Source of the DNA: Thermoplasmata archaeon
GTDB lineage: Archaea > Thermoplasmatota > Thermoplasmata > Thermoplasmatales > GCA-001856825
Direction of reading: 5' to 3'
Assembly (NCBI GenBank): GCA_021827945.1
Contig: JAKATW010000141.1
Coordinates: forward strand, 1 to 45,957
DNA: 45,957 nucleotides
Part shown: positions 7,888 to 42,704 of the stretch, piece after piece
Position numbering within the stretch: position 1 is the stretch's first letter
Layout of the letters: each line of letters starts with the position of its first letter
The notes under the pieces: generated by a model
The model's database searches: none
The model's input: the letters and a program-made list of their open reading frames with translations, nothing else
What the model was told of the DNA's origin: nothing
Translations under genes and position numbers: made by a program

Positions 7888-7888
7888 C

Positions 7889-8344
7889 TCAGTATCCCTC
7901 CGTCTTATCGTAAGAAACTCTGTCCTCTCCATCATCGGAAAGATTTACGAACTGTTTCTTGTCCATTGGATAGTCCTTTCTCAGAGGGTGACCGATCCAT
8001 CCCTCAGCGAGGAGGATCCTCTTCAGATTAGGATGGTTCTTGAACTTGACTCCTACCAGATCCCACGTTTCCCTTTCGTGCCAGTCGGCTCCCTTCCAGA
8101 GTGACGTCACGGAATCGACTTCCTCGTTTGTCTTTGTCTTTACTATGAGACGTGCATTGTTCCCGGATGAAAGGAGGTGATATAGCACCTCGAGGTGATC
8201 CTTGTAGTCCACCCCTGTGATCATCAGCAGGGTATCGAACCCCTCCCCTTTCTTCTCTGTCAGGAAAGGGAGAATGTTTTCTTTTGAGACGTAAACGACC
8301 TTTATCCCATTCTTGGTTGTCGTCTCAGCTTCTATGGGGATCAA
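7889..8344 (-). CDS. nuoC: NADH-quinone oxidoreductase subunit C (30-kDa type)
   Basis: 151 aa. The signature [41 protein letters not shown] is unmistakable for the NuoC/FpoC/HycE-N family. Peripheral-arm structural subunit. The start overlaps the nuoB stop by four bases. The N-terminal domain is short compared with bacterial NuoC, as usual in archaea. Confidence 0.96.
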
Positions 8345-9221: not shown

Positions 9222-10025
9222 TCACGATACACCCAAAGCAGATTTTCTTTCGGGGCCCCTTGTTGCGCCCTTCTGTTGGTACTTCACGAAAATGTTCGTC
9301 GTCATCACCTTCCGTAGCAGCTGGATTGCGAGGGCAGGATCTACTCCCTTGGGACAGACCTCCGAACATGCACCAGAGAAGTGACACCTCCAGACGCCAT
9401 GCTTTGAGTCGACCACGTTGAGCCTCTCCTCGAAGCCCAAATCCCTGTTATCAACTATGTATCTGAAACTCTGAGCAAGGGCCTGAGGGCCAAGGTACAG
9501 CTCGTCAGATGCGCTAGTAGGACAGGCTGATAGGCAAAGTCCGCAGAGTATGCAGTCTGTGAACATTGCGTATTTCTCACGCTGATCGGGTGTCTGAAGG
9601 AACTCGCTCTTGGGCTCCTCCTCTTCCCTCACAATGAAGGGTTTCACGCTCTGATGATTGTTGAATAATTTGGAGAGTTCTGGTACGAGGTCCTTTACGA
9701 TCCCGTAATTGCCCATCGGATCGACCTTTATGAGATCCTTGCCCAGTTCGAGTATTTGGGTCTGGCAAGCAAGTTTTTCCTTTCCGTTTATTATCATACC
9801 GCACGATCCGCATATCCCCATCCTGCAGGAATATCTGGCCGAAAGAGAGTGGTCTAAGTGCTCCTTGATGTAGAGGATTCCGTCGAGTATTGTCATCCCC
9901 TTCTGAACCGGGACCTTGTATTCCTCATACTTCGGAATTTCTTTCTTTTCCGGGTCGTATCTTCTGACCCTGAATGTCACGGTTTTGACGACCTCTCCAA
10001 ATCCTTTGAGTACTAGAGTTTCCAT
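9222..10025 (-). CDS. sdhB: Succinate dehydrogenase/fumarate reductase iron-sulfur subunit (complex 1)
   Basis: 267 aa. The N-terminal [2Fe-2S] domain has CRMGICGSC and a fourth Cys in KLACQT. The C-terminal domain has CILCGLCLSACP for the [4Fe-4S] cluster and CHFSGACSEVCP, completing the three-cluster relay of SdhB. Last gene of an A-C-D-B operon, one base after sdhD. The tail (QQKGATRGPERKSALGVS) is polar. Carries electrons from SdhA-bound FAD to the membrane quinone site. Confidence 0.95.
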   Translation of the reverse strand: METLVLKGFGEVVKTVTFRVRRYDPEKKEIPKYEEYKVPVQKGMTILDGILYIKEHLDHSLSARYSCRMGICGSCGMIINGKEKLACQTQILELGKDLIKVDPMGNYGIVKDLVPELSKLFNNHQSVKPFIVREEEEPKSEFLQTPDQREKYAMFTDCILCGLCLSACPTSASDELYLGPQALAQSFRYIVDNRDLGFEERLNVVDSKHGVWRCHFSGACSEVCPKGVDPALAIQLLRKVMTTNIFVKYQQKGATRGPERKSALGVS

Positions 10026-12904: not shown

Positions 12905-13624
12905 TCACAACCCCATGTGAATTAGCAAAATGTTGGGCACAATTCCTGCAATCATTCCCCTTATGAACAGGTCAACAAAGACGAACATTATCAGGCTTGT
13001 CCATGCGATCGCCTCGTGATGGCCGTTCAGTCTGGACTGGAACCTGTAGATTGAATTCTTCTTGTCCCGGTTGACGGGGCAGTTCACACAATCCTTGTAC
13101 CCACCGATAAGGTGCCTTACGGAATGGCAGGAGAAAGTATAGAATGTGACAGCCAGTGCGTTTATGGTCAGAATGACAGTACCCAAACTCACGGTAATTG
13201 CTCCAGTGTAGACGATGGAATGGTATATGTCGTAGTAGAAGAAGGGGAGTATGCCCCATGCAGTATACATGAAATATCTATGGATATTTTCGACCCTGAA
13301 GAAACCTGTCTCTCCGCTATAACCCCTACTCTTCGTATCCAGGCGGACATCCGTTGCACAGCTGTTGGGGTGCTTGAAGAGGTGTCTGTGGTAGTCCTTC
13401 CTGTATGCATAGCAGGTCAACCTGAAGAGAACAACGAGGGGGAGTATGAGCACGGTGGGGGTGTAGAATGGATCCGTCAGCCCATCGTAGACGGGTACCT
13501 TGTAAAGGATGATGAGGATCGAGCCCAGTATAGATATGAAAACGAACGACCAGAACCTCCAGTTCGGTTCAAGGAATTCCGGCGGTATCAGGTGTTTCAG
13601 TGGAGTTTCGTTTGCAGCTCTCAT
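12905..13624 (-). CDS. Membrane anchor subunit of second Sdh complex (actinobacterial Sdh1-like)
   Basis: 239 aa with about five TM helices, larger than classical SdhC. The motifs CHSVRHLIGGYKDCVNCPVNRDKK and SRLNGHHEAIAWTSL, with several histidines near membrane borders (YHRHLF, ENIHRYF), resemble the cytochrome-b-like anchor of the mycobacterial Sdh1 class. The histidines are plausible diheme ligands by analogy. Start overlaps the sdhB2 stop by four bases. Complexes of this class are linked to menaquinone in actinobacteria; whether that holds here is inference. Confidence 0.75.
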   Translation of the reverse strand: MRAANETPLKHLIPPEFLEPNWRFWSFVFISILGSILIILYKVPVYDGLTDPFYTPTVLILPLVVLFRLTCYAYRKDYHRHLFKHPNSCATDVRLDTKSRGYSGETGFFRVENIHRYFMYTAWGILPFFYYDIYHSIVYTGAITVSLGTVILTINALAVTFYTFSCHSVRHLIGGYKDCVNCPVNRDKKNSIYRFQSRLNGHHEAIAWTSLIMFVFVDLFIRGMIAGIVPNILLIHMGL

Positions 13625-14370
13625 CTCTTTCCACCGCCTTTTCTCCTGGACCTCACAAAAATAGCTATCGGATCATACTCGGCATTGACTGCCCTCTCCT
13701 TCTCTGGAATTATGGCATTATCTGTAATGTGTATCTCCTCAGGACAGACCTCGGTGCAGCACTTGGTTATGTTGCAATAGCCGAGACCCGCGTCCTTGTT
13801 CATGAATTCCGATCTATCCAGAGCGTCCAGCGGGTGCATATCCAAGGAGGCTGCCTTCACCACGTGCCTTGGACCAAAGTAACCGGAATTGTGCTCCCTG
13901 ATAACGTGACATACGTCCTGGCAGAGGAAACACTCTATGCACTTCTTGAATTCCTTAGATCTCTCTATATCTACCTGTGAAATCTTCCATGGTTTTTCCA
14001 GCCCCTCCCTGGGAGTAAATTTTGGGATCTTCTTTAGGAGGTCCCAGTTCTGTGAAACGTCTGTAACGAGGTCCTTTATCAGGGGGTAGGCAGCGATAGG
14101 AGACACTTTTATCTTACCGTCCTTGAAAGAATCAACGCGAGTCTTGCACATCAGTGAGGGCCTGTGGTTTATCTCTGCCGAGCAAGAACCACACTTTCCA
14201 GCCATGCAGTTCCACCTCAGAGATAGACTCGGGTCGATGTGTCTCTCTATATACTTCATGGCATCCAGGACGACCATTCCCTCTTCCTTCGGGACTTCAT
14301 AGTCCACGAACCTTCCCTCCTTCTCAGATGAGGGATCGTATCTGTATACACTGACCTTGATGCTTTCCAT
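13621..14370 (-). CDS. sdhB: Succinate dehydrogenase iron-sulfur subunit (complex 2)
   Basis: The track ORF starts at 14433, but the ATG at 14370 (MESIKVSVYRYDP, 249 aa) is better: GGAGG lies upstream and the ATG overlaps the sdhA2 stop by one base (TGATG). Clusters: CMAGKCGSC with a later Cys in SLMCKT for [2Fe-2S]; CIECFLCQDVCHV and CNITKCCTEVCPE for the C-terminal clusters. The sequence KCCTEVCPEEIHITDNAIIP strongly resembles the SdhB of actinobacterial-type complexes, unlike sdhB of the neighbouring operon. The C-terminus (RSRRKGGGKR) is basic. Confidence 0.93.
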   Translation of the reverse strand: MESIKVSVYRYDPSSEKEGRFVDYEVPKEEGMVVLDAMKYIERHIDPSLSLRWNCMAGKCGSCSAEINHRPSLMCKTRVDSFKDGKIKVSPIAAYPLIKDLVTDVSQNWDLLKKIPKFTPREGLEKPWKISQVDIERSKEFKKCIECFLCQDVCHVIREHNSGYFGPRHVVKAASLDMHPLDALDRSEFMNKDAGLGYCNITKCCTEVCPEEIHITDNAIIPEKERAVNAEYDPIAIFVRSRRKGGGKR

Positions 14371-16094
14371 CAGTATTCCTCCTCCCTTATGAGTTTCCTC
14401 AGATTGTCTGGGATTTTTGGAACTTCCCTCCATTCAAGTCTCATTCCTCTCTCTCCCTTCGTGTAGATGATGTTCTTCCTCATTGCTGGGTCCTTCTTCG
14501 GATAGTCACTTCTCGCGTGGGCTCCCCTGCTCTCCTTCCTCTCTATTGCTCCCCTTACGATTGCTTCTGCTGCGGTAAGCATTGAGGGGAGCTCAAGAAC
14601 CTGAAGTAACCCCTTGTTGTACTTCAGGCCACCATGAACTGCAGCTTTCTTTGACAGGTCCTTCAGCTCCTGAATCGTTTCTAGCGCTTTCCTGAGGTTC
14701 TCCTCATTTCGTATGATACCCACGTTTTCGCTCATGTTTTCCTCAAGTCTCGAAGCCAGGTCGTAAGGGTTCAGTCCGTCCCTTCCGACCAACGAGTTCA
14801 CCCTTTCTATCTCTGCCGAAATGGCAGCATCGTCTATTTTTCCCTGTGATATCTTTTTCGAGTACGATGAGGCCCCCTCTCCGCTTCTCTTTCCGAACAC
14901 CAGAATGTCGGCCAGGGAATTTCCTCCAAGTCTGTTCGCTCCGTGGAGACCGCTGGCCACCTCGCCCGATGCAAACAACCCTGGAATATTTGTAGCAGTA
15001 CTCTCCGGGTCTACCCTGATTCCACCCATCTGGTAGTGCACGGTGGGAGCCACCTCCATCTTTTCCTTTGTGATGTCAACGCCGGCGAAATCCATGTACT
15101 GCTTGTACATGCTCGGCAATTTTCTCTTGATGAAATCCGCACCCCTGTGGGTTATGTCTAGGTACACCCCCCCGTGTGCTGTACCTCTTCCGGCCATTAT
15201 CTCCGCGTAGTTAGCCCTGGCAACTATATCTCTTGCGTCAAGCTCCATCTTCTTGGGAGAGTATCGCGCCATGTATCTCTCTCCCTGCGCATTCAATAAT
15301 ATCCCTCCCTCTCCCCTGACGCCCTCTGTTACCAGCAGTCCCTTGACGCCAGGAGGAAAAACCATTCCAGTTGGATGGAACTGTATCATTTCCATATCCA
15401 TCAGTTCAGCCCCTGCCTCAAAAGCTAGTCCCAGTCCATCGCCGGTAGATTCCCAGGAATTGGAAGTGACCTTGTATATCCTACCACAACCTCCTGTAGA
15501 AACGATGACTGCCTTTGAACTGAAAACGTGAATATCTCCGGTATTCAACTTTATTCCAATTGCCCCGACTACCCTTTCCCCATCCTTGAGGAGTTTGGTG
15601 ACATAGAATTCATCGAAGAACTTTATGTCCCTGTGAAGAATCTGATCCTCAAGGGTCCTTATTATTTCCAGGCCGGTCCTGTCGCCGACATGACAGAGTC
15701 TCCTGTACGTATGAGCTCCAAACGCTCTCTGCATAATGGTACCTTCTGGAGTCCTGTCGAATAGCGCACCATATTCTTCAAGTTCCCTGACCCTTTCGGG
15801 CGCCTCCTTAGACAGTATCTCTGCCATCCTGAAGTTTGAGATGTAGACTCCCTCCTCCATGGTGTCAGCGAAATGGACCTCCCAGCTGTCCTTGGGGTCG
15901 ACGTTTGCTAGTGCGGCAGCGATTCCCCCTTCAGCCATAACGGTGTGCGCTTTGCCCAAGAGAGACTTGGATAGAACGGTGACGCTCGAACCAGAATCGA
16001 ACGCGGCTATGGCAGCTCTCATCCCAGCTCCTCCAGCCCCTATGATCAGAACATCGGTCTCGTGTTTAATGTATTGTGAACTCATAACACTCAT
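14370..16094 (-). CDS. sdhA: Succinate dehydrogenase flavoprotein subunit (complex 2)
   Basis: The track starts at a TTG (16097); an ATG follows directly at 16094, with another at 16085. About 574 aa. Seen: GAGGAGMRAAIA (FAD), KAHTVMAEGGIAA with the covalent-FAD His, FHPTGMVFPPG, TEGVRGEGG, LDARDIVARA (active-site Arg), TVHYQMGGIRVD and GANRLGGNSLAD. All catalytic elements are present. Heads the operon A2-B2-C2-small subunit. A TATA-like TTTATATC lies about 35 bp upstream. Clearly diverged from sdhA1, consistent with two distinct complexes rather than a recent duplication. Confidence 0.94.
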   Translation of the reverse strand: MSVMSSQYIKHETDVLIIGAGGAGMRAAIAAFDSGSSVTVLSKSLLGKAHTVMAEGGIAAALANVDPKDSWEVHFADTMEEGVYISNFRMAEILSKEAPERVRELEEYGALFDRTPEGTIMQRAFGAHTYRRLCHVGDRTGLEIIRTLEDQILHRDIKFFDEFYVTKLLKDGERVVGAIGIKLNTGDIHVFSSKAVIVSTGGCGRIYKVTSNSWESTGDGLGLAFEAGAELMDMEMIQFHPTGMVFPPGVKGLLVTEGVRGEGGILLNAQGERYMARYSPKKMELDARDIVARANYAEIMAGRGTAHGGVYLDITHRGADFIKRKLPSMYKQYMDFAGVDITKEKMEVAPTVHYQMGGIRVDPESTATNIPGLFASGEVASGLHGANRLGGNSLADILVFGKRSGEGASSYSKKISQGKIDDAAISAEIERVNSLVGRDGLNPYDLASRLEENMSENVGIIRNEENLRKALETIQELKDLSKKAAVHGGLKYNKGLLQVLELPSMLTAAEAIVRGAIERKESRGAHARSDYPKKDPAMRKNIIYTKGERGMRLEWREVPKIPDNLRKLIREEEY

Positions 16095-16199
16095 CAAATT
16101 TTACTTACTTTTGCTCAGTGTTTAAGGAGATATAAATTTTTAGAGGCATTAAGATTATTTCAACGTTCCTTATATCTTTAAAGCGGTACCCTCACCCCA

Positions 16200-17899: not shown

Positions 17900-20482
17900 G
17901 TGTCTGAAAGGGAAGAGGTTATCGGGTACCTAAAGAATAATCGTTATGAAAAGAAAATCTGCATCAATTGCGGAAAGACATTCTGGACACTGGATGCGGA
18001 GAGGAAGACGTGCGGTGAGGTGCCTTGCGATCCTTACTCTTTCATCGGCAATCCTCCTACATCCAGGAAGTATTCACTGGAGGAGATGAGGGAGGAGTTC
18101 CTCTCGTTCTTTGAAAAACTGGGGCACAAGAGAGTCAAGCGCTATCCAATAGTTGCAAGGTGGAGGGAAGACGTCTACCTTGTCAATGCGAGCATATATG
18201 ACTTTCAACCCCACGTCACATCTGGCAAGGTACCACCACCCGGAAACCCGCTTGTGGTTTCACAACCATGTATCAGGACTGTCGACCTTGACAATGTTGG
18301 GAAGACCGGAAGACATCTTTCTGTATTCGAGATGGGTGGTGCGAAATCGTTCAATTTTCCTGGAAAGGAAATCTATTGGAAGGATAAGGCAATAGAGCTG
18401 GCCGTAAAGTTCCTCCAGCATCTTGGCGTGAAGAAAGAGGAGGTAGTCTTCAAGGAAAAACCATGGGCCGGGGGTGGCAATGCGGGCTCATCCGTTGAGG
18501 TGATGGTCAGGGGACTCGAGGTTGCAACACTTGTATTCATGGACATGGTTGAGACTCCCGACGGGGATGTAGAGATAGACGGTATTAGATATAGGAAAAT
18601 GGACAACAGGATAGTGGATACCGGATACGGCATTGAGAGATTCACCTGGTTGTCGCAGGGTACCGATACGGTCTACGAGGCGCTATACCCTCAAATGGTA
18701 TCCGACCTGATGAACGAGATTGACCTTGGGAGGCCAGACTTCCTGAGAGAATTCATAAATGCATATGCGAGCGAGGACGGATCTGAGGTCAAGTTCCTTG
18801 CTTCGCTGGGCGCGGATGAAAGAACTAGTCTTGACAGGTTATCGAATATATACATCCTTGCTGACCATAGCAGGGCAATAACAATACTCTTGTACGATGG
18901 TCTTGTGCCATCGAACTCAAAGGCGGGCTACGTCCTCAGGATGCTGATAAGAAGGGCGTTGCTTGCAAGGAAGCGATTGGGGATGGGGTCCGATCTGTGG
19001 GACCTGGTAGATCAGCAGAAGGAGAGATTCAGCGATATTCTAGACGTGAGGCTGGAGAGCTCTGCAAGGGAGATCGTGAAGCTCGAGATTGAGAGATTTG
19101 ATGATCTGCTGGCGAAAGGAGACAGTACGATCAAAAAGTATGCGAAGGGAGGAGCCATCAAGGCAGAAGATGTTCTACTTCTCTTTGAATCGAATGGACT
19201 CCCTATCGAATACGTCAGGGAGAGATGCGAGGCACTGGGCATAAAATTCCCGGAGAAGCTCGAGAAGTCGAAAGGATTCTCCAACACCAGGAGAGAGCCA
19301 AAGGAAAAGGAACACTTCCTCAAGGGAAAATATCCGGAGACTGTAAGGTCTTACTACGAGAACGAAAGGATTTTGGAATTCAACAGTAAAGTCGTGGGGG
19401 TCGAGGGGAAATCGGTCGTCCTTGAAAACACGTATTTCTATCCCGAGGGTGGCGGACAGCCTTCGGACCGTGGAGTCATCTTGTCCTCTGGAAAGAAGGC
19501 CACAGTTGAGGATGTGAGGATTGTTGATGGAACCATAGTTCACTTAGTAGATGATGCGGAAGGAATCGCAGTTGGAGATACGGTGCACGGGTTTGTTTCT
19601 ACGGACAGGAGGAGAAGGCTGATGCAGAATCACACGGCGACCCATATAATTTTATCCTCGATAAGGGACATACTTGGGCCACACATCTGGCAGGCTGGAG
19701 CCCAGAAGGACGAAAGGGTCAGCAGGTTGGACGTGACTCACTACAGGGACATCAGTCCCGAGGAGATATCGAAGATTGAAGAGAGGGCAAATGAGATAGT
19801 GAGAATGAACCTTCCCCTTCACAAGGAGTTCGTAAACAGGAACGATGCAGAGGCCAACTTTGGCTTCACACTATTTCAGGGAGGGATACCGGACGGGAAC
19901 AAACTCAGGCTCGTCGAAATTCCTGGGGTGGACGCAGAGGGGTGCGGTGGAACGCATCTTGACTATACCGGGGAAGTTGGATACATCAAGGTAGTCAAGG
20001 TTGAGAGGATCCAGGACGGAATAATCAGATTCAACTTCGCAGCAGGCAAGTCGGCAGTAGAATACTCGAACTCACAGAGCAACCAACTTCTCGAGATACG
20101 AGAGAAAATGGGGGACGACCCAGCAAAGGCATTCGAAGCGGTCAATCACAACCTGGAGGAAACGAAGAAGGCGATAGAGTCGGGTTTCGAATATTCGAAT
20201 GTAAAGTTCGGAAATAGAGAACTAAAGATCATGGAAGTGAACGAATCTATTGCAGAATCTATATCGAGGAGTCTCTCTGGTTCGTCAGGAGTGGTTGTCT
20301 CCAAGGAGAGGATAAGGGTAGCTTCCTCGTCACCCGACATATCAGCACTGGAGATCATGCACATCCTTGAGAAGAAGGGGTTTGTCAGAGGAGGGGGAAA
20401 TAGTACTTATGCACAAGGAAAAGTTTTAAAGGAAAATATCGGTCTTAAGGATATCGAAGAGGCGATTTTCAATCACAGCTGA
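17900..20482 (+). CDS. alaS: Alanyl-tRNA synthetase
   Basis: 860 aa, GTG start. The N-terminus carries the archaeal extension with CINCGKTFWTLDAERKTCGEVPC, a zinc-ribbon-like pair. The aminoacylation domain shows VVSQPCIRTVDLDNVGKTGRHLSVFEMGG (class II). The editing domain has HTATH (about 575) and GCGGTH (about 685), both intact. The C-terminal C-Ala segment ends with KKGFVRGGGNSTYAQGK. Charges tRNA-Ala; a tRNA-Ala gene and a free editing factor (alaX) are encoded in the same window. Followed directly by the M50 protease frame, which overlaps its 3' end. Confidence 0.96.
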   Translation: MSEREEVIGYLKNNRYEKKICINCGKTFWTLDAERKTCGEVPCDPYSFIGNPPTSRKYSLEEMREEFLSFFEKLGHKRVKRYPIVARWREDVYLVNASIYDFQPHVTSGKVPPPGNPLVVSQPCIRTVDLDNVGKTGRHLSVFEMGGAKSFNFPGKEIYWKDKAIELAVKFLQHLGVKKEEVVFKEKPWAGGGNAGSSVEVMVRGLEVATLVFMDMVETPDGDVEIDGIRYRKMDNRIVDTGYGIERFTWLSQGTDTVYEALYPQMVSDLMNEIDLGRPDFLREFINAYASEDGSEVKFLASLGADERTSLDRLSNIYILADHSRAITILLYDGLVPSNSKAGYVLRMLIRRALLARKRLGMGSDLWDLVDQQKERFSDILDVRLESSAREIVKLEIERFDDLLAKGDSTIKKYAKGGAIKAEDVLLLFESNGLPIEYVRERCEALGIKFPEKLEKSKGFSNTRREPKEKEHFLKGKYPETVRSYYENERILEFNSKVVGVEGKSVVLENTYFYPEGGGQPSDRGVILSSGKKATVEDVRIVDGTIVHLVDDAEGIAVGDTVHGFVSTDRRRRLMQNHTATHIILSSIRDILGPHIWQAGAQKDERVSRLDVTHYRDISPEEISKIEERANEIVRMNLPLHKEFVNRNDAEANFGFTLFQGGIPDGNKLRLVEIPGVDAEGCGGTHLDYTGEVGYIKVVKVERIQDGIIRFNFAAGKSAVEYSNSQSNQLLEIREKMGDDPAKAFEAVNHNLEETKKAIESGFEYSNVKFGNRELKIMEVNESIAESISRSLSGSSGVVVSKERIRVASSSPDISALEIMHILEKKGFVRGGGNSTYAQGKVLKENIGLKDIEEAIFNHS

Positions 20483-33395: not shown

Positions 33396-34499
33396 ATGGG
33401 TAAGGATTATTACGCTGTACTGGGAGTAGATAGAAAGGCGTCCAAGGACGATATTAAGAAGGCATACAGGGACCTAGCAAAGAAGTACCATCCAGATCTG
33501 AACCCCCAGAACAAGAAAGAGGCAGAGGAAAAATTCAAAGAGATCAGCGAAGCATATGAAATCCTCATGGATGATCAGAAGAGGGCACGTTTCGATCAGT
33601 ACGGGGAGGAAGGAGTAAAGTTCCAGGGAGGATTTGACTGGAATCAGTTCCACCACTACCAGGATATCCAGGATATATTCGGAGACCTGTTCTCCCAGTT
33701 CGGTTTTGGGGGTGGAGGATTTGGGAACCCGTTCGGTGGGTTCTCGGGTCAGCAGAGGGAACTGAGGGGACAAGACGTTTACGTAGAGATTCCCATAGAC
33801 ATAAGGCGGATAGCGAGGGGCGAAAAGATCGAGGTGTACTACTTCAGGGAAATGAAGTGTGAAGAGTGCAATGGGACTGGCTCGTCAACAAAGAAGCTCC
33901 TGACATGCCCCACGTGCAGGGGACGCGGATACGTGGAGAGATCCTCCAATCAGGGGTTCATTGTCTTCAGGACCACTGAAGTCTGCAGGACATGCAATGG
34001 AAGGGGAAAGGTTCCAGAAAAGGTATGCCACGTCTGTTCAGGATCCGGATATACCAGAAAAAAGGACAAGATAGACATTTCACCGCCTCCTGGCATCCAT
34101 GAAGAAGAGGTTTACATACTGAGGGATAAGGGGAACTACAGACCCGGTGGCTCCGGAGACTTGAGAATAAAGTTTGACATCGATTACATGGAATTCAGAA
34201 GAGATAATGACGACCTGGAGAAGGACATTCAGGTAGACTTTATAGACGCCATTATGGGTGGAAAAGTAAAGGTCCAACTGTTGAGGGGAGAGAGGGAGGT
34301 GGACATACCAGCAGGGACTCAACCAGAGGAGAGAATAGTCCTGAAGGGAGAAGGTATCCAGAGGAAGAGCGGCAGGGCTAACGCTGACATAGTACTGAAG
34401 GCAAAGATAGCTCTTCCGAAGAAGATATCAAAGAAGCAGCGGGAGCTGCTCGAACAGTTCAAGAATGAGAAAGGTTTCTTTTCGCAGTTTCACTTGTGA
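33396..34499 (+). CDS. dnaJ: Co-chaperone DnaJ (Hsp40)
   Basis: 367 aa. J domain at 1-68 with [10 protein letters not shown] (HPD motif), Gly/Phe-rich stretch ([15 protein letters not shown]), and all four zinc repeats ([32 protein letters not shown]), so it is a class A DnaJ. Activates DnaK ATPase and holds unfolded substrates. Thirteen bases after dnaK. Its last ten bases overlap the convergent alaX gene. Confidence 0.96.
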
Positions 34500-35188
34500 A
34501 TGGAGAAGTACATTCTCTTGTTATTCTTTCCCTTATTTTCGATCTTGTAAATCTCTATTTCGCCAACCTCAGAAGTGTTCTTGACATGAGTTCCGCCATC
34601 TGGCTGGATATCGATATCACCTATCCTGACAACGCGGAGAGTATCGGTTGAAGGAAGGAGTCGTAGATCGACCTTCAGTGCACCTTCCATTCTCAAGATT
34701 TCATCTCTCTTCATCGAGAGAACTGTCACTTCTTGATTTTTTCTAAGCTCTTCGTTGACCCTCGTCTGCAGTGACTTGGAAATTTCACTGTTCCAGTCTT
34801 TGAAATTGAAGTCTATCCGTGAGTAGTCTTGGTTTATCTGGTTACCAGTTATCATTGCTCCAAACTCCTTCATTGCTATAGATGATACAACATGAATTGC
34901 GGTATGTTGTCTCATGAGCAGGTAGCGTCTTTCCCAGTCGATTTTCAGCTTGACCTTCTCTCCCACTGTCGGCTGGAAATCTGTCCTATGCACAATCTCG
35001 TCCAGCTTGGTCACTTCCGTCACCTCATATTTTCTAGTCCCTTCCATTGTTCCAAGGTCGGATGGCTGTCCTCCGGATGCGGCATAGAATATGGTTCTGT
35101 CCAGTATCACTCCATCTCGAATCTCAAACACCTCCGCATCCAGTTCTCTAAGATATGAATCCTCGAGATATAGTTGAATTGTTTTCAT
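34490..35188 (-). CDS. alaX: Free-standing alanyl-tRNA editing protein AlaX
   Basis: The track begins at GTG 35218, but the ATG at 35188 ([20 protein letters not shown], 232 aa) fits AlaX N-termini. Contains the AlaRS-type editing fold: [15 protein letters not shown], the first zinc motif QHTAIHV, and the second site [18 protein letters not shown]. AlaX removes Ser or Gly from misacylated tRNA-Ala. Odd point: the usual Cys ligand (CGGTH) is Asp (DGGTH). Last gene of the minus-strand operon with the flavoprotein and ATC-hydrolase-like genes, 26 bp after the latter; convergent overlap with dnaJ. Confidence 0.88.
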
Positions 35189-35214
35189 CGTCCCACTTCT
35201 GTTGAAGACATAGG

Positions 35215-35784
35215 TCACTTATCTATGTAAAACCAGTTATTTTCCTCGCTCGCAAAGTCTTCCCTCTCCTTCTTCGTGGTCTTTCTCAGTGCGAACTCAC
35301 AGAAATTGTCACCATCGGGTATTGCCTTGAGGTGTTGCAGCTTATAATTGGGATTGTAGGACATATATTTTGCAATATCGACGTAGCAGTACATCCTTCC
35401 AAGGTGATCCAGGCCTAGCTCCTTCCAAGTTTTCGCTAGCACGCACCCATAAGCGGCCTCTCTCTTTTCACCGTCTTTCTCAAATTCCTCAACCTTATCA
35501 TGCATACCGAATTCAGGCAATCCATAATATCTGCCCTTGTCAAAGTTCTCTGGTCTATTGGTGAGTCCCATCTTCTCGACCTCTTCCCTTGTCTTCTCTC
35601 CGATTTTCCTGCCATATTCCTTGATTGCCTTGGAAATCACCTCTTCGCCCTTCTTCTCTCCAAGCTCCCTCACCAGAGTCTCTGCATACGCAAGGTGAAG
35701 CAACGCGATCCTTCTGCTAGTTATCGCAATGTCCTCCTTTGCCCTCTCAATATCGACACTTCTATTTTTGTTCACATCAAACAC
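35215..35784 (-). CDS. L-2-amino-thiazoline-4-carboxylate hydrolase family protein
   Basis: 189 aa, probably GTG start four bases after the [2Fe-2S] gene. An all-helical N-terminal half (RIALLHLAYAETLVRELGEKKGEEVISKAIKEYG) and a C-terminal half with MYCYVDIAKYMSYNP and the family motif DGDNFCEFALRK fit the ATC-hydrolase family (named after a Pseudomonas enzyme opening a cyclic cysteine precursor). Most members are uncharacterised, so the thiazoline reaction is not implied. The conserved Cys in GDNFCEF is present. Tight spacing suggests a role in the same pathway as the flavoprotein. Confidence 0.72.
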   Translation of the reverse strand: MFDVNKNRSVDIERAKEDIAITSRRIALLHLAYAETLVRELGEKKGEEVISKAIKEYGRKIGEKTREEVEKMGLTNRPENFDKGRYYGLPEFGMHDKVEEFEKDGEKREAAYGCVLAKTWKELGLDHLGRMYCYVDIAKYMSYNPNYKLQHLKAIPDGDNFCEFALRKTTKKEREDFASEENNWFYIDK

Positions 35785-35788
35785 ATCC

Positions 35789-36121
35789 TTATTCTGACTC
35801 TCCCTTTCTGAGATAGACTAGATCCTTTACTACTTTTAAATTCTTTACTGGTTCAACAACTAGATCAGTATCAACTTTCGTTTGACAGGCTAGTGATACC
35901 TTTCCGTTAACCGACACTGTACAATTGCTGCATATACCAATCTTGCAAGCGGTATGGCTATAATAAGAAATGGTACTGTCAAGGTTCTCATAGATATAAT
36001 CAAGAGCATCCAATACTGACATTCCTTCCTGTAGTGGTATTTGATAACTCTGGTAATTTGTCTTAGATCCGTGGGAATTTTCATTTCTGGCAATTTTAAT
36101 CGTAACCAATTTCTTTTCCAT
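35789..36121 (-). CDS. Stand-alone [2Fe-2S] protein related to the SdhB N-terminal domain
   Basis: Preferred ATG at 36121 (110 aa), preceded by AGGTGA; the track GTG is nine bases earlier. Motif CKIGICSNC plus the fourth Cys in LACQTK is the SdhB/FrdB-type plant ferredoxin fold (Cys near 60-80), and EGMSVLDALDYIYENLDSTISYYSHTACKIG aligns in order with the two SdhB proteins of this window. The C-terminal domain with [4Fe-4S]/[3Fe-4S] clusters is absent: the protein ends with VVKDLVYLRKGESE. It is 12 bases downstream of the flavoprotein and most likely its electron acceptor. Confidence 0.85.
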   Translation of the reverse strand: MEKKLVTIKIARNENSHGSKTNYQSYQIPLQEGMSVLDALDYIYENLDSTISYYSHTACKIGICSNCTVSVNGKVSLACQTKVDTDLVVEPVKNLKVVKDLVYLRKGESE

Positions 36122-36133
36122 TTTATTCACCTA

Positions 36134-37906
36134 TCAGTGTGCCCCTGGGGTGTCAGAGTGAGATTTCATCATCATCTTCATCATATCAAAATAGGGGAGT
36201 TTCCCTTCAGGTGGTCTTATACTGTCAAAATCCACAGACCTTGTTTCTGTCTTGAAACTATTCTTGTCCCTTTTGAATATGATCTCCTTTAACCAATTGT
36301 CATTGTCAGTGATTGGAATATCGGATCTATAATGAACTCCTCTGCTTTCTGTCCTTATCAAGGCTGCATTAGCAGATAATTCCAAGATGGTCAGTATATT
36401 CTCCAGCTCCAGAATTTCAATCAATTCCTTATTGTACTTGAGGGAAGAAACATCCTGTAGACAAGTGTGTCTATACTCTTCCTTCGCATTCTCTATGAAT
36501 TCTAGGTATTCTTCCAGTCCCTTTTCCGTCCTTATGGGTCCCAAATTACTGTATGTTTCCGTCTGAATTCGCTTCAAAAGACTAGATGGTTTATTCCCCC
36601 CCCTCCTAGAGAGAATACCATCGATTTTCTTCTCGAATTCCTGAATCTGATTTTGATCCAACTCCTTGAACTCTTTTCCATTTGCATAAGTAGCTGCACT
36701 TCCACCTGCAATTGCGCCTTCAACAAGCATTTCTGTGGTCGCAGCAACCACCCTATTTGCTCCAAAAATGCTCATGGTCGCTTCGCCTGCTGCAAAAAGT
36801 CCATTGAGAGTAGATGAGAATTTTTCATCGATAACAATTCCACCTTCAAAATACTCAGCAGATGGCCCAACCTCTACCCCGGAACCATGTACTAATTTAT
36901 CTTTCAGATTTGAAAAATCTGTGCCCTTGTATCTCCATTTCGGATAGATTTTCTCAACATTGGCGAATGCTTTCTCTTTTGAAACACCTTTCAGCGTGTA
37001 GAGGATGCTAGAGTGAGTAGTACCATTCCCATTGAGGATCTCTTGGTAAGTAGCAATAGATACGAAACTCTTGTTCCACTCCGTCGATGTTCCAATCTTT
37101 ACTACTTCTGGGTCATACGCGTCTAGAAACCTTTCATTTTTAGTATTAACAAGCTCTCCTCCCACCATGGAGTGAAGTATGTATGTGAAAATACTTCCAT
37201 TCCAGATAGGCGGCCAATGAGTAACGTTACAACAGAAAGTCACAAATTCCATATTTCCAAGAGAGGCTCCAGCTCTATAGGCTATTGCAAGACCATCGCC
37301 TGCAAGCTCACGTGAACCTGCATTGTATATGTAAGCTTTGTGCCAGCCCCCTGTTGCTATGACCACCGCCTTGGCCTTGAATATAATGAACTCTCCTGTC
37401 AGTACTCTTAGACCTATACCACCAGAAACTGTCCCCCTTGAAGTTAACAGTTCCAAGAACATGACATCGTTGATAAGCTTCACATTCAGCTCCTCGGCTT
37501 TCTTCAGCAGAGTGTGGGTGATGTTGAATCCTTCAGTGTCAATTGCGCGTTCCTCATCATAGTCCACTCTCATCCCCCAATCTATCAATTCCTCGACCAC
37601 CTTTGGTGCATCTTCTACATATCTCTTCACTAATTTCTGATTTCCTAAGAAGTAGCTCTGAGTTATAATATCGTTGAAGAATTTCTCCTTGTTGTCGGTT
37701 ACTACTCCCTTGAAACCTAGCTCGTTTAGACTCTTTCCGTCAAGAGTTAGGTCTGCTCCTGCCATAGGTGATGCCCCACATTTGGCGGCTTCTCCCTTAC
37801 TTATGAGGATAACCCTTGACCCATGATCTCCTGCTTCAATGGCTGCTCGTAAACCCGCACCTCCTCCTCCTACGACGAGGACATCAGCTTCAAGTGTGGA
37901 AGACAT
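36134..37906 (-). CDS. SdhA/FrdA-like FAD-dependent oxidoreductase, substrate unknown
   Basis: The track starts at a TTG; ATG at 37906 (MSSTLEADVLVVGGGGAG) is preferred (590 aa). Fold markers: VVGGGGAGLRAAIEAG, VIATGGWHKAYIYNAGSRELAGDGLAIAYRAGA, GLFAAGEATMSIFGANRV, and the SdhA C-terminal helical domain (ILELSANAALIRTESRGVHYRSD). Differences from true SdhA: no His in the covalent-FAD position (KCGASPMAGAD), HPTG replaced by NVTHWPP, TEGxRGEG replaced by SMVGGELVN, the active-site Arg helix changed to TEWNKSFVSIATY, and HYxMGG replaced by EYFEGG. So succinate/fumarate is an unlikely substrate. Operon with an APC permease, a [2Fe-2S] protein and an ATC-hydrolase-like protein suggests an amino-acid-derived substrate (inference). 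Confidence 0.85.
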   Translation of the reverse strand: MSSTLEADVLVVGGGGAGLRAAIEAGDHGSRVILISKGEAAKCGASPMAGADLTLDGKSLNELGFKGVVTDNKEKFFNDIITQSYFLGNQKLVKRYVEDAPKVVEELIDWGMRVDYDEERAIDTEGFNITHTLLKKAEELNVKLINDVMFLELLTSRGTVSGGIGLRVLTGEFIIFKAKAVVIATGGWHKAYIYNAGSRELAGDGLAIAYRAGASLGNMEFVTFCCNVTHWPPIWNGSIFTYILHSMVGGELVNTKNERFLDAYDPEVVKIGTSTEWNKSFVSIATYQEILNGNGTTHSSILYTLKGVSKEKAFANVEKIYPKWRYKGTDFSNLKDKLVHGSGVEVGPSAEYFEGGIVIDEKFSSTLNGLFAAGEATMSIFGANRVVAATTEMLVEGAIAGGSAATYANGKEFKELDQNQIQEFEKKIDGILSRRGGNKPSSLLKRIQTETYSNLGPIRTEKGLEEYLEFIENAKEEYRHTCLQDVSSLKYNKELIEILELENILTILELSANAALIRTESRGVHYRSDIPITDNDNWLKEIIFKRDKNSFKTETRSVDFDSIRPPEGKLPYFDMMKMMMKSHSDTPGAH

Positions 37907-37918
37907 TTTCAAGATTTA

Positions 37919-39340
37919 TCACTTTCCTGCCGACGCCTTCTCAATTTCTAAGGGTTTGTCCGTCAGTATCTTCTTTCTGTTTATATAAGTGAAGATTATT
38001 CCAAATACCACCCAGATAGGAATAACATAGTAGACTAGAGAAATCGGCCAAGCCAGACCTAGAACGGAATAATAGCCACCAATCAAGAAGAGTATCGATG
38101 ATATCGTAGGTACAATAATGTGTGGAAGAATCTTTAATTCAGTCAAACGCCTGTAGAGGAAAGCAAGAGTCTGATTGACTATTAGATGATACAGCCACCA
38201 GAGGACGGACAGGAAGGTTCCGAACAAAAGCCACGCGTAAAACGTTCCATCATTCATTCCATAGAAGTGTACAAAGACTATCAAAGATAAAACCGTCAAG
38301 ACAACGGTAAAGGTGAAAATTGTCAATACTGCGACATACGGACTTTTGTACTTCGGATGTACTCGAGACAGAGACTCCGGTAACACTCTATCTCTCGATA
38401 GGGAAAGGAATATTCTTGCAGTTTGTGAGCCATTAAAAACTGGCGCCATTATTTGAGCAATTTCAATGACGATGAACGAGACTAATAGTACACCGCCGCC
38501 CAAGTATTTCTCCGTGAAGTAAAATCCTGGTGAAAAATAGGAAAGCGCAGTACTTAGGGAGGAACCAGCAATTGAAACTACAGAGTAAACTTCAAGAATT
38601 TCAATTCCAATAATTATTACGGCAGCTGCAACAATAGCATTCTTTATAGTCCTGAACGGAGTTTTTGTTTCCTCTCCGAACATTACTATCCCACCGTAAC
38701 CAGAATAACTCATGAATCCACCAACTACTACTGCTGTGAAGAAACCAGAGAGACCCCCCCAGGAGTTTCCAATGTTGAAATATGATATATTGTTGTTAGG
38801 GCTTATCGCTATCAGGGCTATGCTAATTGCCCCAAAAATCGCAATTTCGAACATTGATATAATAATGGCTAGATTGCCGCCGACCGACACAGACCTGTAA
38901 CCAACAACCAGATAGAGTACCGGTCCTATTAATGATGCAAGAATGACCACGTAAAGTGGAAGAGAAATGTTGAAGAGTGCCATCAGGGCAGACCAAAGTA
39001 ACCAACCCCCCAATATGCTAGTAAATGGCATCGCGCTTGACATGTACAAGATCTGTAGGAATCCCACTGTTTTACTAAAGTATTTGTTTGGAACACTCCT
39101 TTCAACGAATTTGTAATAACCTCCAGGTGTTGCAACCTTCTTGCTGTAATAATAAACTGAGACTATAGCAGCAAGCAACATTATTCCCCCGATCAAGAAA
39201 GCCATTGGAGCAACTGGGCCGGAATAAGCCATTGCAGTTGACCCGGTGATTGCAAAAGCTGAAGCTGGGAACATAACAGCTACTGCCCAAAAAACCAGCT
39301 GCCAAAAAGACAGACCACTTCTATTAAGTTCATTGGTCAT
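37919..39340 (-). CDS. APC superfamily amino acid permease
   Basis: The track starts at TTG 39352; the ATG at 39340 (MTNELNRSGLSFWQLVFWAVAVMFP, 473 aa) lies 24 bp after a TATA element, so a leaderless start is likely. About 12 TM helices, with APC features: the first helix PASAFAITGSTAMAYSGP, GGYYKFVERSVPNKY in the first loop, and FMSYSGYGGIVMFGEETKTPFRTIKNAI in helix 6 with following loop. Amino-acid/H+ symport is the family role; substrate unknown. Twelve bases before the flavoprotein ATG, so it very likely imports that pathway's substrate. Confidence 0.88.
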   Translation of the reverse strand: MTNELNRSGLSFWQLVFWAVAVMFPASAFAITGSTAMAYSGPVAPMAFLIGGIMLLAAIVSVYYYSKKVATPGGYYKFVERSVPNKYFSKTVGFLQILYMSSAMPFTSILGGWLLWSALMALFNISLPLYVVILASLIGPVLYLVVGYRSVSVGGNLAIIISMFEIAIFGAISIALIAISPNNNISYFNIGNSWGGLSGFFTAVVVGGFMSYSGYGGIVMFGEETKTPFRTIKNAIVAAAVIIIGIEILEVYSVVSIAGSSLSTALSYFSPGFYFTEKYLGGGVLLVSFIVIEIAQIMAPVFNGSQTARIFLSLSRDRVLPESLSRVHPKYKSPYVAVLTIFTFTVVLTVLSLIVFVHFYGMNDGTFYAWLLFGTFLSVLWWLYHLIVNQTLAFLYRRLTELKILPHIIVPTISSILFLIGGYYSVLGLAWPISLVYYVIPIWVVFGIIFTYINRKKILTDKPLEIEKASAGK

Positions 39341-39359
39341 AGTATATATCAAACTGTCT

Positions 39360-39390
39360 TTATAATTAGTCTTATTTTCTTACATGTAAG
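39360..39390 (-). promoter_or_regulatory. Promoter and operator candidate of the permease-flavoprotein operon
   Basis: Minus-strand TAATTATAA (39360-39368) lies 24 bp before the ATG at 39340. Ten bases further upstream is a perfect 12-bp palindrome, CTTACATGTAAG (39379-39390), in the position where an activator or BRE-overlapping repressor would bind. Confidence 0.5.
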
Positions 39391-39703
39391 ATGGTGCACT
39401 TCAATATAATTGAACAAAAATGACGTGAGATACATCAGAATAATCTCAATTAAGTGCTTTCAAACTACCTGACAGCTCTAAGATTTGAAACATATGTCCA
39501 ATGAAACTGGTAGCGATTAAGTCTTCCAAAATACTCCTAGAACTCAGAAAGTGAACTTTATGTAAATATTTCGAATTTTGTGGTGGTCCGGTTCTACCAT
39601 TTTATTCCACTCTCCATCTAGAAATGATTTTAATTCGGAAAATGTTTTTAAGATTGGTGAAAATACTGAATGTTATTTATTCAAATAACCTCAATGCAGA
39701 AAA
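39391..39703. other. Divergent intergenic region, permease operon / HTH regulator
   Basis: About 310 bp, AT-rich, with scattered stops in all frames and no RNA fold recognised. Probably regulatory DNA for the two divergent units at either end. Confidence 0.35.
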
Positions 39704-39739
39704 TTTAACTATAAGTAATAGATCGATTACTGCGATCTA
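39704..39739 (+). promoter_or_regulatory. Promoter and autoregulatory operator candidate of the HTH-10 gene
   Basis: TATA-like CTATAAGTA (39710-39718) is 27 bp before the ATG. Between it and the ATG is an inverted repeat TAGATCG-7-CGATCTA (39719-39725 and 39733-39739), covering the expected start point. A regulator bound here would block transcription, which suggests autoregulation. Confidence 0.5.
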
Positions 39740-39740
39740 G

Positions 39741-40442
39741 ATGTTTTACCGACTCCATTTATTGATTGAGCATAGCGAAGACTGGTCAATGCTGTGCAAG
39801 GAATTTGATGTTTCTGCAAAACCTCTACTCTATTTCCTTGCTAATATTAATGGAAGTTACGTGCGCGCTGAACTTACCAAAATTAGTTGTAATCATGACG
39901 AGTGCAAGGATGGATATTATCTGGATCAATTTGTGTACAAAGTCAAGAAGAACAAAGAAGTCTATGGAGTAGTATATTTTAATAGAGAAGACAGACATTT
40001 CAATAAGATCAGGTACATCCTCACCCTCGAAGACTACAGTTCATCAATAAGAAAACTTATCAATGATCGCCTTGGATTTTTTATCTCGACTAAAGGACAT
40101 AAGAACCTCGAGGAATTCACAGTACTATTCCCATTCGGTCGCAGAACGGAATTTGAAGAGCTCAGAGATCAACTCGACGAGATGGGAACGGTACACCTAT
40201 TTGATGTCACAAAAGTGAGCGATACGGTACTTCCTACTTATCCCCGTCTGACTCAAAGGGAAACTGAAGTGATGCAAACAGCCTGGTCCAGTGGTTATTT
40301 CAATTATCCTAAGAATATCAACCTTGAGGAGATGGCAAGAGACATGAGCATTAAAAGATCTACCCTAGATTATCATTTGCGTGAAGGTGTTAAGAAGTCC
40401 ATACAATTTCTTATTGACACGGGAATGTATGAGTGGCAATAA
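39741..40442 (+). CDS. Bacterio-opsin-activator-type HTH regulator (HTH-10)
   Basis: 233 aa. The C-terminal HTH-10 domain is clear: LTQRETEVMQTAWSSGYFNYP then INLEEMARDMSIKRSTLDYHLREGVKKSI (about 170-225). The N-terminal 160 residues are an unrecognised sensory domain with cysteines at SCNHDEC and near the start. Such regulators control local metabolic genes in euryarchaea. Divergent from the permease-flavoprotein operon, so it probably regulates that operon (inference). ATG is probably leaderless. Confidence 0.85.
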   Translation: MFYRLHLLIEHSEDWSMLCKEFDVSAKPLLYFLANINGSYVRAELTKISCNHDECKDGYYLDQFVYKVKKNKEVYGVVYFNREDRHFNKIRYILTLEDYSSSIRKLINDRLGFFISTKGHKNLEEFTVLFPFGRRTEFEELRDQLDEMGTVHLFDVTKVSDTVLPTYPRLTQRETEVMQTAWSSGYFNYPKNINLEEMARDMSIKRSTLDYHLREGVKKSIQFLIDTGMYEWQ

Positions 40443-40488
40443 TTCTCAAATGATTTTTGATGAGAACTCAATCGAATGGCTCTCCAGT

Positions 40489-41385
40489 TCATAAACCAAT
40501 GAATGGGATTAGAATTGATAACAAGGCTATAATCACAAAAAAGATTCCGATGAATATGTTGGTTGAAACGAAGAGTTTCATGATGCGCTTATCTGGGTCC
40601 ACCAGAGCCCTAAGATAAGATGTCAATAGAGAGAGTCCCAGAAGCACATAGATCGCGAAGACCCCGATTCCCACGTAGAAGGTAAAATAAGACCTGAATT
40701 CGAACCCGGTCAGAATCGTGACAATTACTGCCAGCAATGCAATTGGGAAGAGTATCCGCATAGACTGTTTTGTCGTACGGTTCACGGGGAGCATCGGGAC
40801 AGACGCTGCTGCATAGTCCTCCCTGTATTTGATAGAGAGGGACCAGATGTGGAGAGGGGTCCATATAAATATTGTCAGGAACATCAAGAATGCGACTACA
40901 TTGTATGAAGATGTAAATGCATAGAAACCTGCAAGTAGAGGAGCTCCCCCTGAGTACGCTCCCAGTATAATGTTCCAGGAGGTTCTCTTTTTTGAAATTA
41001 GGGAATATATTATCACGTAGTCGAAAATGCCGCTTGCCATAAATGCGAAGGACCAGAAGGATCTAAAAATCGCCATGACGAGTGTTGCGGTAATAAGGAT
41101 AAGGCCACCATAGAGTGCTATACTTGGCTTCATCCTTCCTGATGGGAGTGCTCTGTTCATCGTTCTCTTCATCTTCTTGTCAATGGATAGATCGAAATAG
41201 TTAGATATCGACTCGGCCCCCATCAGTCCCAGTGCGATGTACACCGCCACATAGAGAAATCCAATCAGATCAAGACTCCTATGTATGCTGAGGGCGAACA
41301 CTTCACCAGCAATTCCTGTTATCAGGAGAAACACCCAGACTCGTGGTTTTGTCATGATTATGAAATCGCTGACGAAATTTCCCAT
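40489..41385 (-). CDS. ctaB: Protoheme IX farnesyltransferase (heme O synthase)
   Basis: 298 aa, about nine TM helices. UbiA-family motifs: NYFDLSIDKKMKRTMNRALPSGRMKP (the DxxxD prenyl-diphosphate site plus M-x-R-T-x-x-R-x-L-P-x-G of CtaB) and the second motif YSLISKKRTSWNIILGAYSGGAPLLAG. Converts heme B to heme O for heme-copper oxidases, fitting the aerobic respiratory genes elsewhere in the window. A TATA-like TATAAATTTA lies 26 bp before the ATG (leaderless). Convergent with the HTH-10 gene. Confidence 0.92.
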   Translation of the reverse strand: MGNFVSDFIIMTKPRVWVFLLITGIAGEVFALSIHRSLDLIGFLYVAVYIALGLMGAESISNYFDLSIDKKMKRTMNRALPSGRMKPSIALYGGLILITATLVMAIFRSFWSFAFMASGIFDYVIIYSLISKKRTSWNIILGAYSGGAPLLAGFYAFTSSYNVVAFLMFLTIFIWTPLHIWSLSIKYREDYAAASVPMLPVNRTTKQSMRILFPIALLAVIVTILTGFEFRSYFTFYVGIGVFAIYVLLGLSLLTSYLRALVDPDKRIMKLFVSTNIFIGIFFVIIALLSILIPFIGL

Positions 41386-41736: not shown

Positions 41737-41757
41737 CTGGGGTGCGTTAAGCGATTT

Positions 41758-41829
41758 GGGCTGGTAGATCAGTGGAAGATCGCCTCCTTGGCATGGAGGA
41801 GGCCCGGGGTTCAAATCCCCGCCAGTCCA
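41758..41829 (+). tRNA. tRNA-Ala (anticodon GGC)
   Basis: 72 nt, folds into a full cloverleaf: acceptor GGGCTGG/CCAGTCC, D stem GATC/GATC, anticodon stem CCTCC/GGAGG with loop TTGGCAT (anticodon GGC), T stem CGGGG/CCCCG with loop TTCAAAT, discriminator A. The acceptor carries the G3-U70 wobble, the alanine identity element. No intron and no encoded CCA. The last 19 bases double as the 3' end of the convergent integrase gene, marking it as the integration target of a mobile element. Confidence 0.95.
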
Positions 41830-42704
41830 TTGACAATGTCGTAGGATTTGGGGGATTTGAACATTTTATCCTCTTTGAATAGTTTCGGGTTTTGGTCGTG
41901 CATTCGTCTTATGGCCTCTGCTGAGTCCAGTTTTGTATAGATGGCTGTTGTATCGAGTCTCTCGTGGCCTAGCATTTGACTGATGGTTTGAAGGTCCATG
42001 TTTTCCATGACCAGTTTAACGGCATATGTGTGACGGCATCTATGCCACTTGAAGCCTTTAACTCCTGTTCTCTCCCGGATCCTCTTGGAAAGGTTCTCCA
42101 TGTAAGACGAGGTTATCTTTCCCTTCCTGGTTGTAAATACGTAATTCAAGTTCTGGTGATTCCTTAAGGGTAGCCATTTTCTTATGCTCTCAAATGTGAA
42201 GGAATCAAGGTAAACATCCCTATTCTCCTCGCCTTTCCCCCTCTCAACTGTCAAATAGTTCTCATGAATATCCTTGACTTTCAAGTTGGCGATCTCGCTT
42301 GCCCTCAATCCTGTGTTGAGTGCAAGGATAATCATCGTATGGTCCCTGTTGTCTTCCAGGGTTTCACCTTTCGATCTTTCAAGTAATAGCTTTACCTCAT
42401 TGGCATCGTACCTATTTATGGTGAATTTCTTTTTTGTTCCTGGAATATACTCAAAAGTATCCCATCCCCTGAATAGTATCCACCTGTTAAGGTACTTAAT
42501 ATATCCGTTGATCTTCTGCTTAGTGGCCCCCATTCTTCTCGCTTCCTTAAGAAACTCGTGGACACTCTCTCTATTTTCCAAGTCTATGGATTTGGAAAAG
42601 AAACGGATCTTCCTAACAGCATCTTCAATGGTTGAAGCAGAGAAGTTACGTCCATACATCCAGTCCTCGAATTCAATCAATTTATTCTCAATATTTTCGT
42701 TCAT
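41811..42704 (-). CDS. Tyrosine recombinase/integrase
   Basis: 297 aa. SAM-like N-terminal domain (about 1-90) and catalytic domain with the full set: Arg 134 (NTGLRASEI), a likely Lys 157, His 221 and Arg 224 (WHRCRHTYA), His 247 (MLGHERLD) and the nucleophile Tyr 256 (TAIYTKL). It is intact. The last six residues (NGLAGI) and the stop codon are read from the complement of the tRNA-Ala T arm, so the attachment core overlaps the gene end without splitting it, unlike SSV-type integrases. Its ATG overlaps the small RHH gene by four bases (ATGA). Confidence 0.93.
   Translation of the reverse strand: MNENIENKLIEFEDWMYGRNFSASTIEDAVRKIRFFSKSIDLENRESVHEFLKEARRMGATKQKINGYIKYLNRWILFRGWDTFEYIPGTKKKFTINRYDANEVKLLLERSKGETLEDNRDHTMIILALNTGLRASEIANLKVKDIHENYLTVERGKGEENRDVYLDSFTFESIRKWLPLRNHQNLNYVFTTRKGKITSSYMENLSKRIRERTGVKGFKWHRCRHTYAVKLVMENMDLQTISQMLGHERLDTTAIYTKLDSAEAIRRMHDQNPKLFKEDKMFKSPKSYDIVNGLAGI

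Follow-up and report, generated by a model that had tools for sequence, protein, structure and literature searches.

The described systems closest to the locus analysed here are the Pseudomonas ATC pathway, the oxidation of thiazolidine-4-carboxylate by proline dehydrogenase, and succinate dehydrogenase and fumarate reductase (SdhAB/FrdAB). In the first, ATC (L-2-amino-thiazoline-4-carboxylate) is converted via carbamoyl-cysteine to cysteine by ATC hydrolase and then carbamoyl-cysteine amidohydrolase (PMC10821248), and the Pseudomonas founder of family PF14196 is a characterised hydrolase according to Tashima (2006), as cited in PMC5847659. The present locus shares with that pathway a PF14196 member, near which an amidohydrolase and cysteine-type enzymes are encoded in Sporomusa and other bacteria, although the pathway (PMC10821248) has no flavoprotein step and the archaeal cassette has no amidohydrolase. 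In the second, thiazolidine-4-carboxylate is oxidised towards N-formylcysteine (Mackenzie and Harris 1957 and Deutch 1992, as cited in PMC9814826), which offers a model of how a cysteine-derived ring may be oxidised to give an N-acyl-cysteine, although the flavoprotein is unrelated and the comparison is an analogy only. With SdhAB/FrdAB the cassette proteins share the FAD_binding_2 and Succ_DH_flav_C domains, a four-Cys Fer2_3 domain and the equivalent of R390; they differ in that the flavoprotein lacks the covalent-FAD His, H232, R287 and H355, the C-terminal cluster domain is missing from the 2Fe-2S protein, and the cassette has no membrane anchor genes. A limited search of open-licence papers found no characterised pathway with the gene set of the cassette.

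We analysed a stretch of 45,957 nucleotides from a Thermoplasmata archaeon (hereafter the window), in which the following features are relevant.

37919-39340, minus strand: APC-superfamily permease, 473 aa, first gene of the operon (ORF and Pfam AA_permease)
36134-37906, minus strand: SdhA/FrdA-superfamily flavoprotein of a separate clade (FAD_binding_2 and Succ_DH_flav_C, alignment, tree)
35789-36121, minus strand: stand-alone [2Fe-2S] protein, 110 aa (Fer2_3)
35215-35784, minus strand: PF14196 (ATC_hydrolase) family protein, 189 aa (Pfam)
34490-35188, minus strand: alaX, AlaX-M-type editing protein, resident and outside the cassette (tRNA_SAD, synteny)
39741-40442, plus strand: HTH_10 (Bat-type) regulator, transcribed away from the operon and lying within the insert (Pfam)
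39365-39359, minus strand: TATA-like box TTATAAA (located by eye)
35189-40488, no strand given: insert of 5300 bp between ubiA and alaX (missing from the 13 related loci compared)
40489-41385, minus strand: ubiA-family prenyltransferase gene, located next to and upstream of alaX in the ancestral arrangement (Pfam, synteny)

The first-pass annotation had described five minus-strand ORFs with short gaps as one unit. All five are present, separated by 12, 12, 4 and 26 bp when likely start codons are used, and the domain names given to them agree with Pfam (AA_permease, FAD_binding_2 with Succ_DH_flav_C, Fer2_3, ATC_hydrolase and tRNA_SAD). TTATAAA, found by visual inspection only, lies 19-25 bases ahead of the ATG of the APC permease and would fit a leaderless archaeal promoter. 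The five genes did not hold together as a unit: AlaX is part of a resident ubiA-alaX pair, and the insert consists of the other four genes together with the divergent HTH_10 gene, which the earlier set had omitted. On the other side of ubiA, tRNA-Ala(GGC) (41757-41830) overlaps by 20 bp the opposite-strand end of a XerA-type recombinase gene (41811-42704); XerA also adjoins ubiA in two other loci (L096 and L104).

Each of the 13 loci read from the genus and family has ubiA immediately next to alaX and, on the opposite side, a convergent dnaJ, and in the eight relatives' junctions that were printed the ubiA stop and the alaX start lie within a few bases of each other or overlap. In the window, 5300 bp carrying the APC permease, flavoprotein, 2Fe-2S, PF14196 and divergent HTH_10 genes separate the two. 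Among the sampled phylum genomes, only the window's own gave a match to the flavoprotein at E<1e-90, and a search of 40 other relatives gave none to the PF14196 protein. In a sample of 390 phylum genomes, the PF14196 gene occurs in two, one of which is the window's own; the second (G382) has no flavoprotein nearby. GC3 is 0.33-0.42 for the flavoprotein, 2Fe-2S, APC and HTH_10 genes vs 0.49-0.62 for most neighbours. That of the PF14196 gene is 0.56 and host-like, so this gene may have joined the cassette separately or have a different history. We regard horizontal acquisition of the cassette as almost certain. A plasmid origin was rejected, as neither the flavoprotein (E<1e-60) nor the PF14196 protein had a match in 72,556 plasmid records, and no convincing repeats were seen at the ends of the insert. 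The insert might instead be an assembly chimera, given that the assembly is fragmented (161 contigs, 87% complete) and that the same insert was not found in any second genome. However, both flanks are genus-typical on a single 46-kb contig and another contig of the same genome carries a second flavoprotein paralogue, which makes a chimera very improbable. This paralogue is a fragment at a contig end (C64, locus L007, G000:C64, 3933-4583) that belongs to the same clade and is 51% identical to the window copy. It is divergent from another APC gene, with an FAH-like ORF (named by eye) nearby, and the APC proteins beside the two flavoproteins are not close to each other.

The position of alaX bears directly on the role proposed for its product. 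The first-pass annotation had made AlaX a part of the pathway, possibly protecting tRNA-Ala from a non-standard amino acid, but the same gene occupies the same place in relatives without the cassette. AlaX had a match in 39 of the 41 genomes searched, with 74-78% identity within the genus, although matches in some more distant genomes may be other AlaX types or AlaRS. Against NCBIfam NF040865, the best model, it scored 265.5 bits over almost its full length; the cut-off is 300, and we therefore use the label AlaX-M-type and do not regard equivalog status as proven. Since AlaX is a resident gene, the main argument for its suggested protective function falls away. That AlaX now clears tRNA-Ala of a toxic analogue of an amino acid might still be argued from its location 26 bp downstream of the PF14196 gene, with which it is probably co-transcribed now; but it is conserved in position and sequence in genus members lacking the cassette, its HTAIH and PDGGTH motifs (HxxxH, GGTH) are identical to those of the relatives, a full AlaRS is already encoded in the window (17900-20482), and no AlaX gene is found near the flavoprotein at the Sporomusa, G926 or G879 loci. 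We thus consider such a function extremely unlikely. On the grounds of synteny we rejected AlaX as a pathway member; it is an ordinary resident gene outside the cassette.

The flavoprotein is about 27% identical to Escherichia coli FrdA. In FrdA numbering, and with H44, H232, R287, H355 and R390 read in their known roles in that enzyme, we aligned it with its bacterial relatives, with FrdA, SdhA and NadB of E. coli, and with the SdhA and the FrdA-like protein that the window also encodes. In fumarate reductase, H355 and R287 serve substrate binding and proton delivery. In the flavoproteins of the window, Sporomusa and two further genomes of its class (G879 and G926), R287 is replaced by K and H355 by E, and R390 is the only one of H232, R287, H355 and R390 that is kept. 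The same K and E are present in the G826 flavoprotein. H232 is also lost in the four, but the alignment near 232-245 is uncertain, so the argument rests on positions 287 and 355 and on the missing covalent-FAD His44, since none of the four has a His at this position or close to it; NadB likewise lacks it. The tree placed the window flavoprotein, the C64 fragment and the three bacterial flavoproteins in one clade with support of 99/99. Because this clade lacks the FAD-linking His and the catalytic residues, succinate or fumarate is unlikely as its substrate, and the protein is very probably not a succinate/fumarate enzyme; activity with these acids, which the first-pass annotation had named as a finding that would refute it, is thus not to be expected. 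Its 110-aa partner has Fer2_3 only, that is, the SdhB N-terminal domain alone with the four Cys ligands kept, and thus does not have the make-up of a three-cluster iron-sulfur subunit, whereas the window's own SdhB (9222-10025) has both domains. A two-residue insertion before the first Cys is common to the 2Fe-2S proteins of the flavoprotein's clade. Elsewhere in the window (12905-16097), a second SdhA/SdhB-like pair (14370-16097 and 13621-14433) adjoins a complete SDH and complex I set, and its 239-aa partner has no Pfam family match.

Relatives of the flavoprotein were sought by a peptide-pattern scan of genome contigs and then in the class of Sporomusa, both being samples of genomes. The scan gave a single relative, from Sporomusa acidovorans (L006; 48% identity), where PF14196, MFS, flavoprotein and 2Fe-2S genes lie in this order and in one direction, followed downstream by genes for an M20 amidohydrolase, RidA and a PF03313 protein. 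The class yielded two genomes related to each other, G879 and G926, with flavoproteins of 48 and 47% identity. G926 (L116) has flavoprotein and 2Fe-2S genes and, 9 bp later, a PF14196 gene (Pfam 55.5 bits) of a distant subfamily (25% identity); G879 has the flavoprotein and 2Fe-2S genes with no adjacent PF14196 gene. With a single PF14196 gene in each genome at a random position, a distance of 5 kb or less from the flavoprotein gene is expected in about 0.2-0.5% of cases; its presence in two of the three bacterial loci and in the archaeon is therefore well beyond chance. The transporters beside the core differ (APC, MFS and TRAP), and the recurrence of flavoprotein, 2Fe-2S and PF14196 in two bacteria with different transporters indicates that the core link is real. 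As for conservation of gene order beyond close relatives, on which the first-pass proposal had depended, the outcome is mixed: the full set is absent even from the sampled close relatives, but the three-gene core is present in Bacteria. Note that the Sporomusa locus looks partly decayed: its flavoprotein gene (L006, 8001-9779) has an in-frame TGA and its MFS gene (6863-7945) appears N-terminally short. Selenocysteine at the TGA was rejected: the residue aligned to it differs between the rows compared and is Cys in none of them, which makes a sequence error or a nonsense mutation the likelier cause.

Most of the Bacillota flavoproteins at a greater distance (33-36% identity) are likewise encoded beside a 2Fe-2S gene, namely in L022 and L024-L031; in L023 no 2Fe-2S ORF was listed, perhaps because a longer overlapping ORF hides it, and in G826 (L117) no 2Fe-2S gene was found next to the flavoprotein gene. 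These pairs resemble the cassette in being two-gene modules of a flavoprotein and a stand-alone 2Fe-2S protein, but they keep R287 and H355, and their neighbours are M24 and PLP enzymes, aldehyde oxidoreductase and various transporters. In L022, L024 and L026, an M24 creatinase-type hydrolase clusters with the flavoprotein, the 2Fe-2S protein and a PLP enzyme, and L026 also has an M20 gene. An ectoine-type pathway, considered because of these M24 neighbours, was rejected, the M24 and M20 proteins being far below the ectoine cut-offs.

The fourth protein matched the PF14196 profile with 65 bits (Pfam cut-off 28.1). Its residues C114, D136 and C162 are invariant and C133 is nearly so; its structure model was poor (mean pLDDT 48), as was that of a second protein modelled (34). 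The chances that it acts as a hydrolase appear even. It might otherwise be a non-enzymatic, ligand-binding or accessory protein of the V4R/HNOB type, with a Cys metal site, that serves the flavoprotein pair: PF14196 is similar to V4R/HNOB domains, which are sensor-type and have a conserved Cys cluster (PMC5847659), C114, C162 and D136 are invariant, and the G926 locus goes with a distant PF14196 variant only. Against this stand the characterised hydrolase from Pseudomonas (Tashima 2006, as cited in PMC5847659) and three genomes of Bacillota in which PF14196 genes lie immediately beside M20 amidohydrolase genes, and we consider an accessory role possible but the less likely of the two. In L089 (7223-11042), a PF14196 gene follows sarcosine-oxidase-alpha-type flavoprotein genes in a locus that also has a gamma-glutamyltransferase gene and a small 2Fe-2S-like ORF; here PF14196 stands beside a flavoprotein of a type other than the window's.

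The permease matched AA_permease (PF00324) with 49.4 bits (cut-off 24.6; 3.7e-13) and has 10 hydrophobic segments in a simple scan; no relative in the PDB was found by sequence. APC-type import suggests an amino-acid-like compound, which the permease would bring into the cell. The flavoprotein, related to SdhA but altered in its active site, would dehydrogenate this compound, electrons would pass through the small 2Fe-2S protein to a carrier, and the PF14196 protein would then hydrolyse what the flavoprotein had oxidised, most likely at a ring or an imine, which it would open; the HTH_10 protein is likely to be the local regulator that controls the cassette. The sequence of import, oxidation with the 2Fe-2S protein and hydrolysis put forward in the first-pass annotation is thus sensible, its three-gene core recurring in distant bacteria, once AlaX is removed from it. 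A horizontally acquired catabolic cassette with all of these steps has, as a whole, about an even chance of being correct.

For the direction of the redox step we lean slightly towards oxidation. The flavoprotein might instead be a reductase, for which an imported unsaturated or oxidised organic acid is an electron sink and the 2Fe-2S protein supplies the electrons, in the manner of other flavoproteins that resemble fumarate reductase. Fumarate and urocanate reductases sit in the same superfamily, the sole named bacterial relative is from Sporomusa, an anaerobe, and R390 is kept; however, H355 and R287 are replaced by E and K, and APC-type import suggests an amino-acid-like compound, so that we judge a reductase rather unlikely.

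As to the nature of the substrate, the gene neighbourhoods differ. In L084 and L085, PF14196 adjoins an M20 amidohydrolase gene and D-cysteine-desulfhydrase-family genes lie within about 5 kb; L083 resembles them, although its PLP gene was named by eye. Together with the Sporomusa locus, these neighbours point to cysteine chemistry, and the M20, RidA, PF03313 and D-cysteine-desulfhydrase-family genes fit both the ATC route and the oxidation of thiazolidine-4-carboxylate. The neighbours in G879 and G926 (aldehyde oxidoreductase, Fe-alcohol dehydrogenase and MoaD genes, with no cysteine genes) point elsewhere, and both M20 and cysteine-degrading genes are missing from the archaeal cassette. The most specific candidate for the substrate, a cysteine-derived thiazolidine or thiazoline, is therefore only a tentative one. 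Equally speculative is a new oxidative route for a cyclic S/N amino acid (for example thiazolidine-4-carboxylate) shared by the archaeon and bacteria of the Sporomusa class, in which the SdhA-derived dehydrogenase and the 2Fe-2S protein would make a thiazoline or imine and the PF14196 hydrolase would open the ring.

The analysis sets apart a group of SdhA relatives that similarity alone would name succinate dehydrogenase but whose active site does not allow that reading; it links this clade with PF14196 and a small 2Fe-2S protein, and it offers a concrete class of substrate. The case of AlaX indicates that, when genes are inserted in a resident operon, a neighbour with no relation to them can seem functionally linked.
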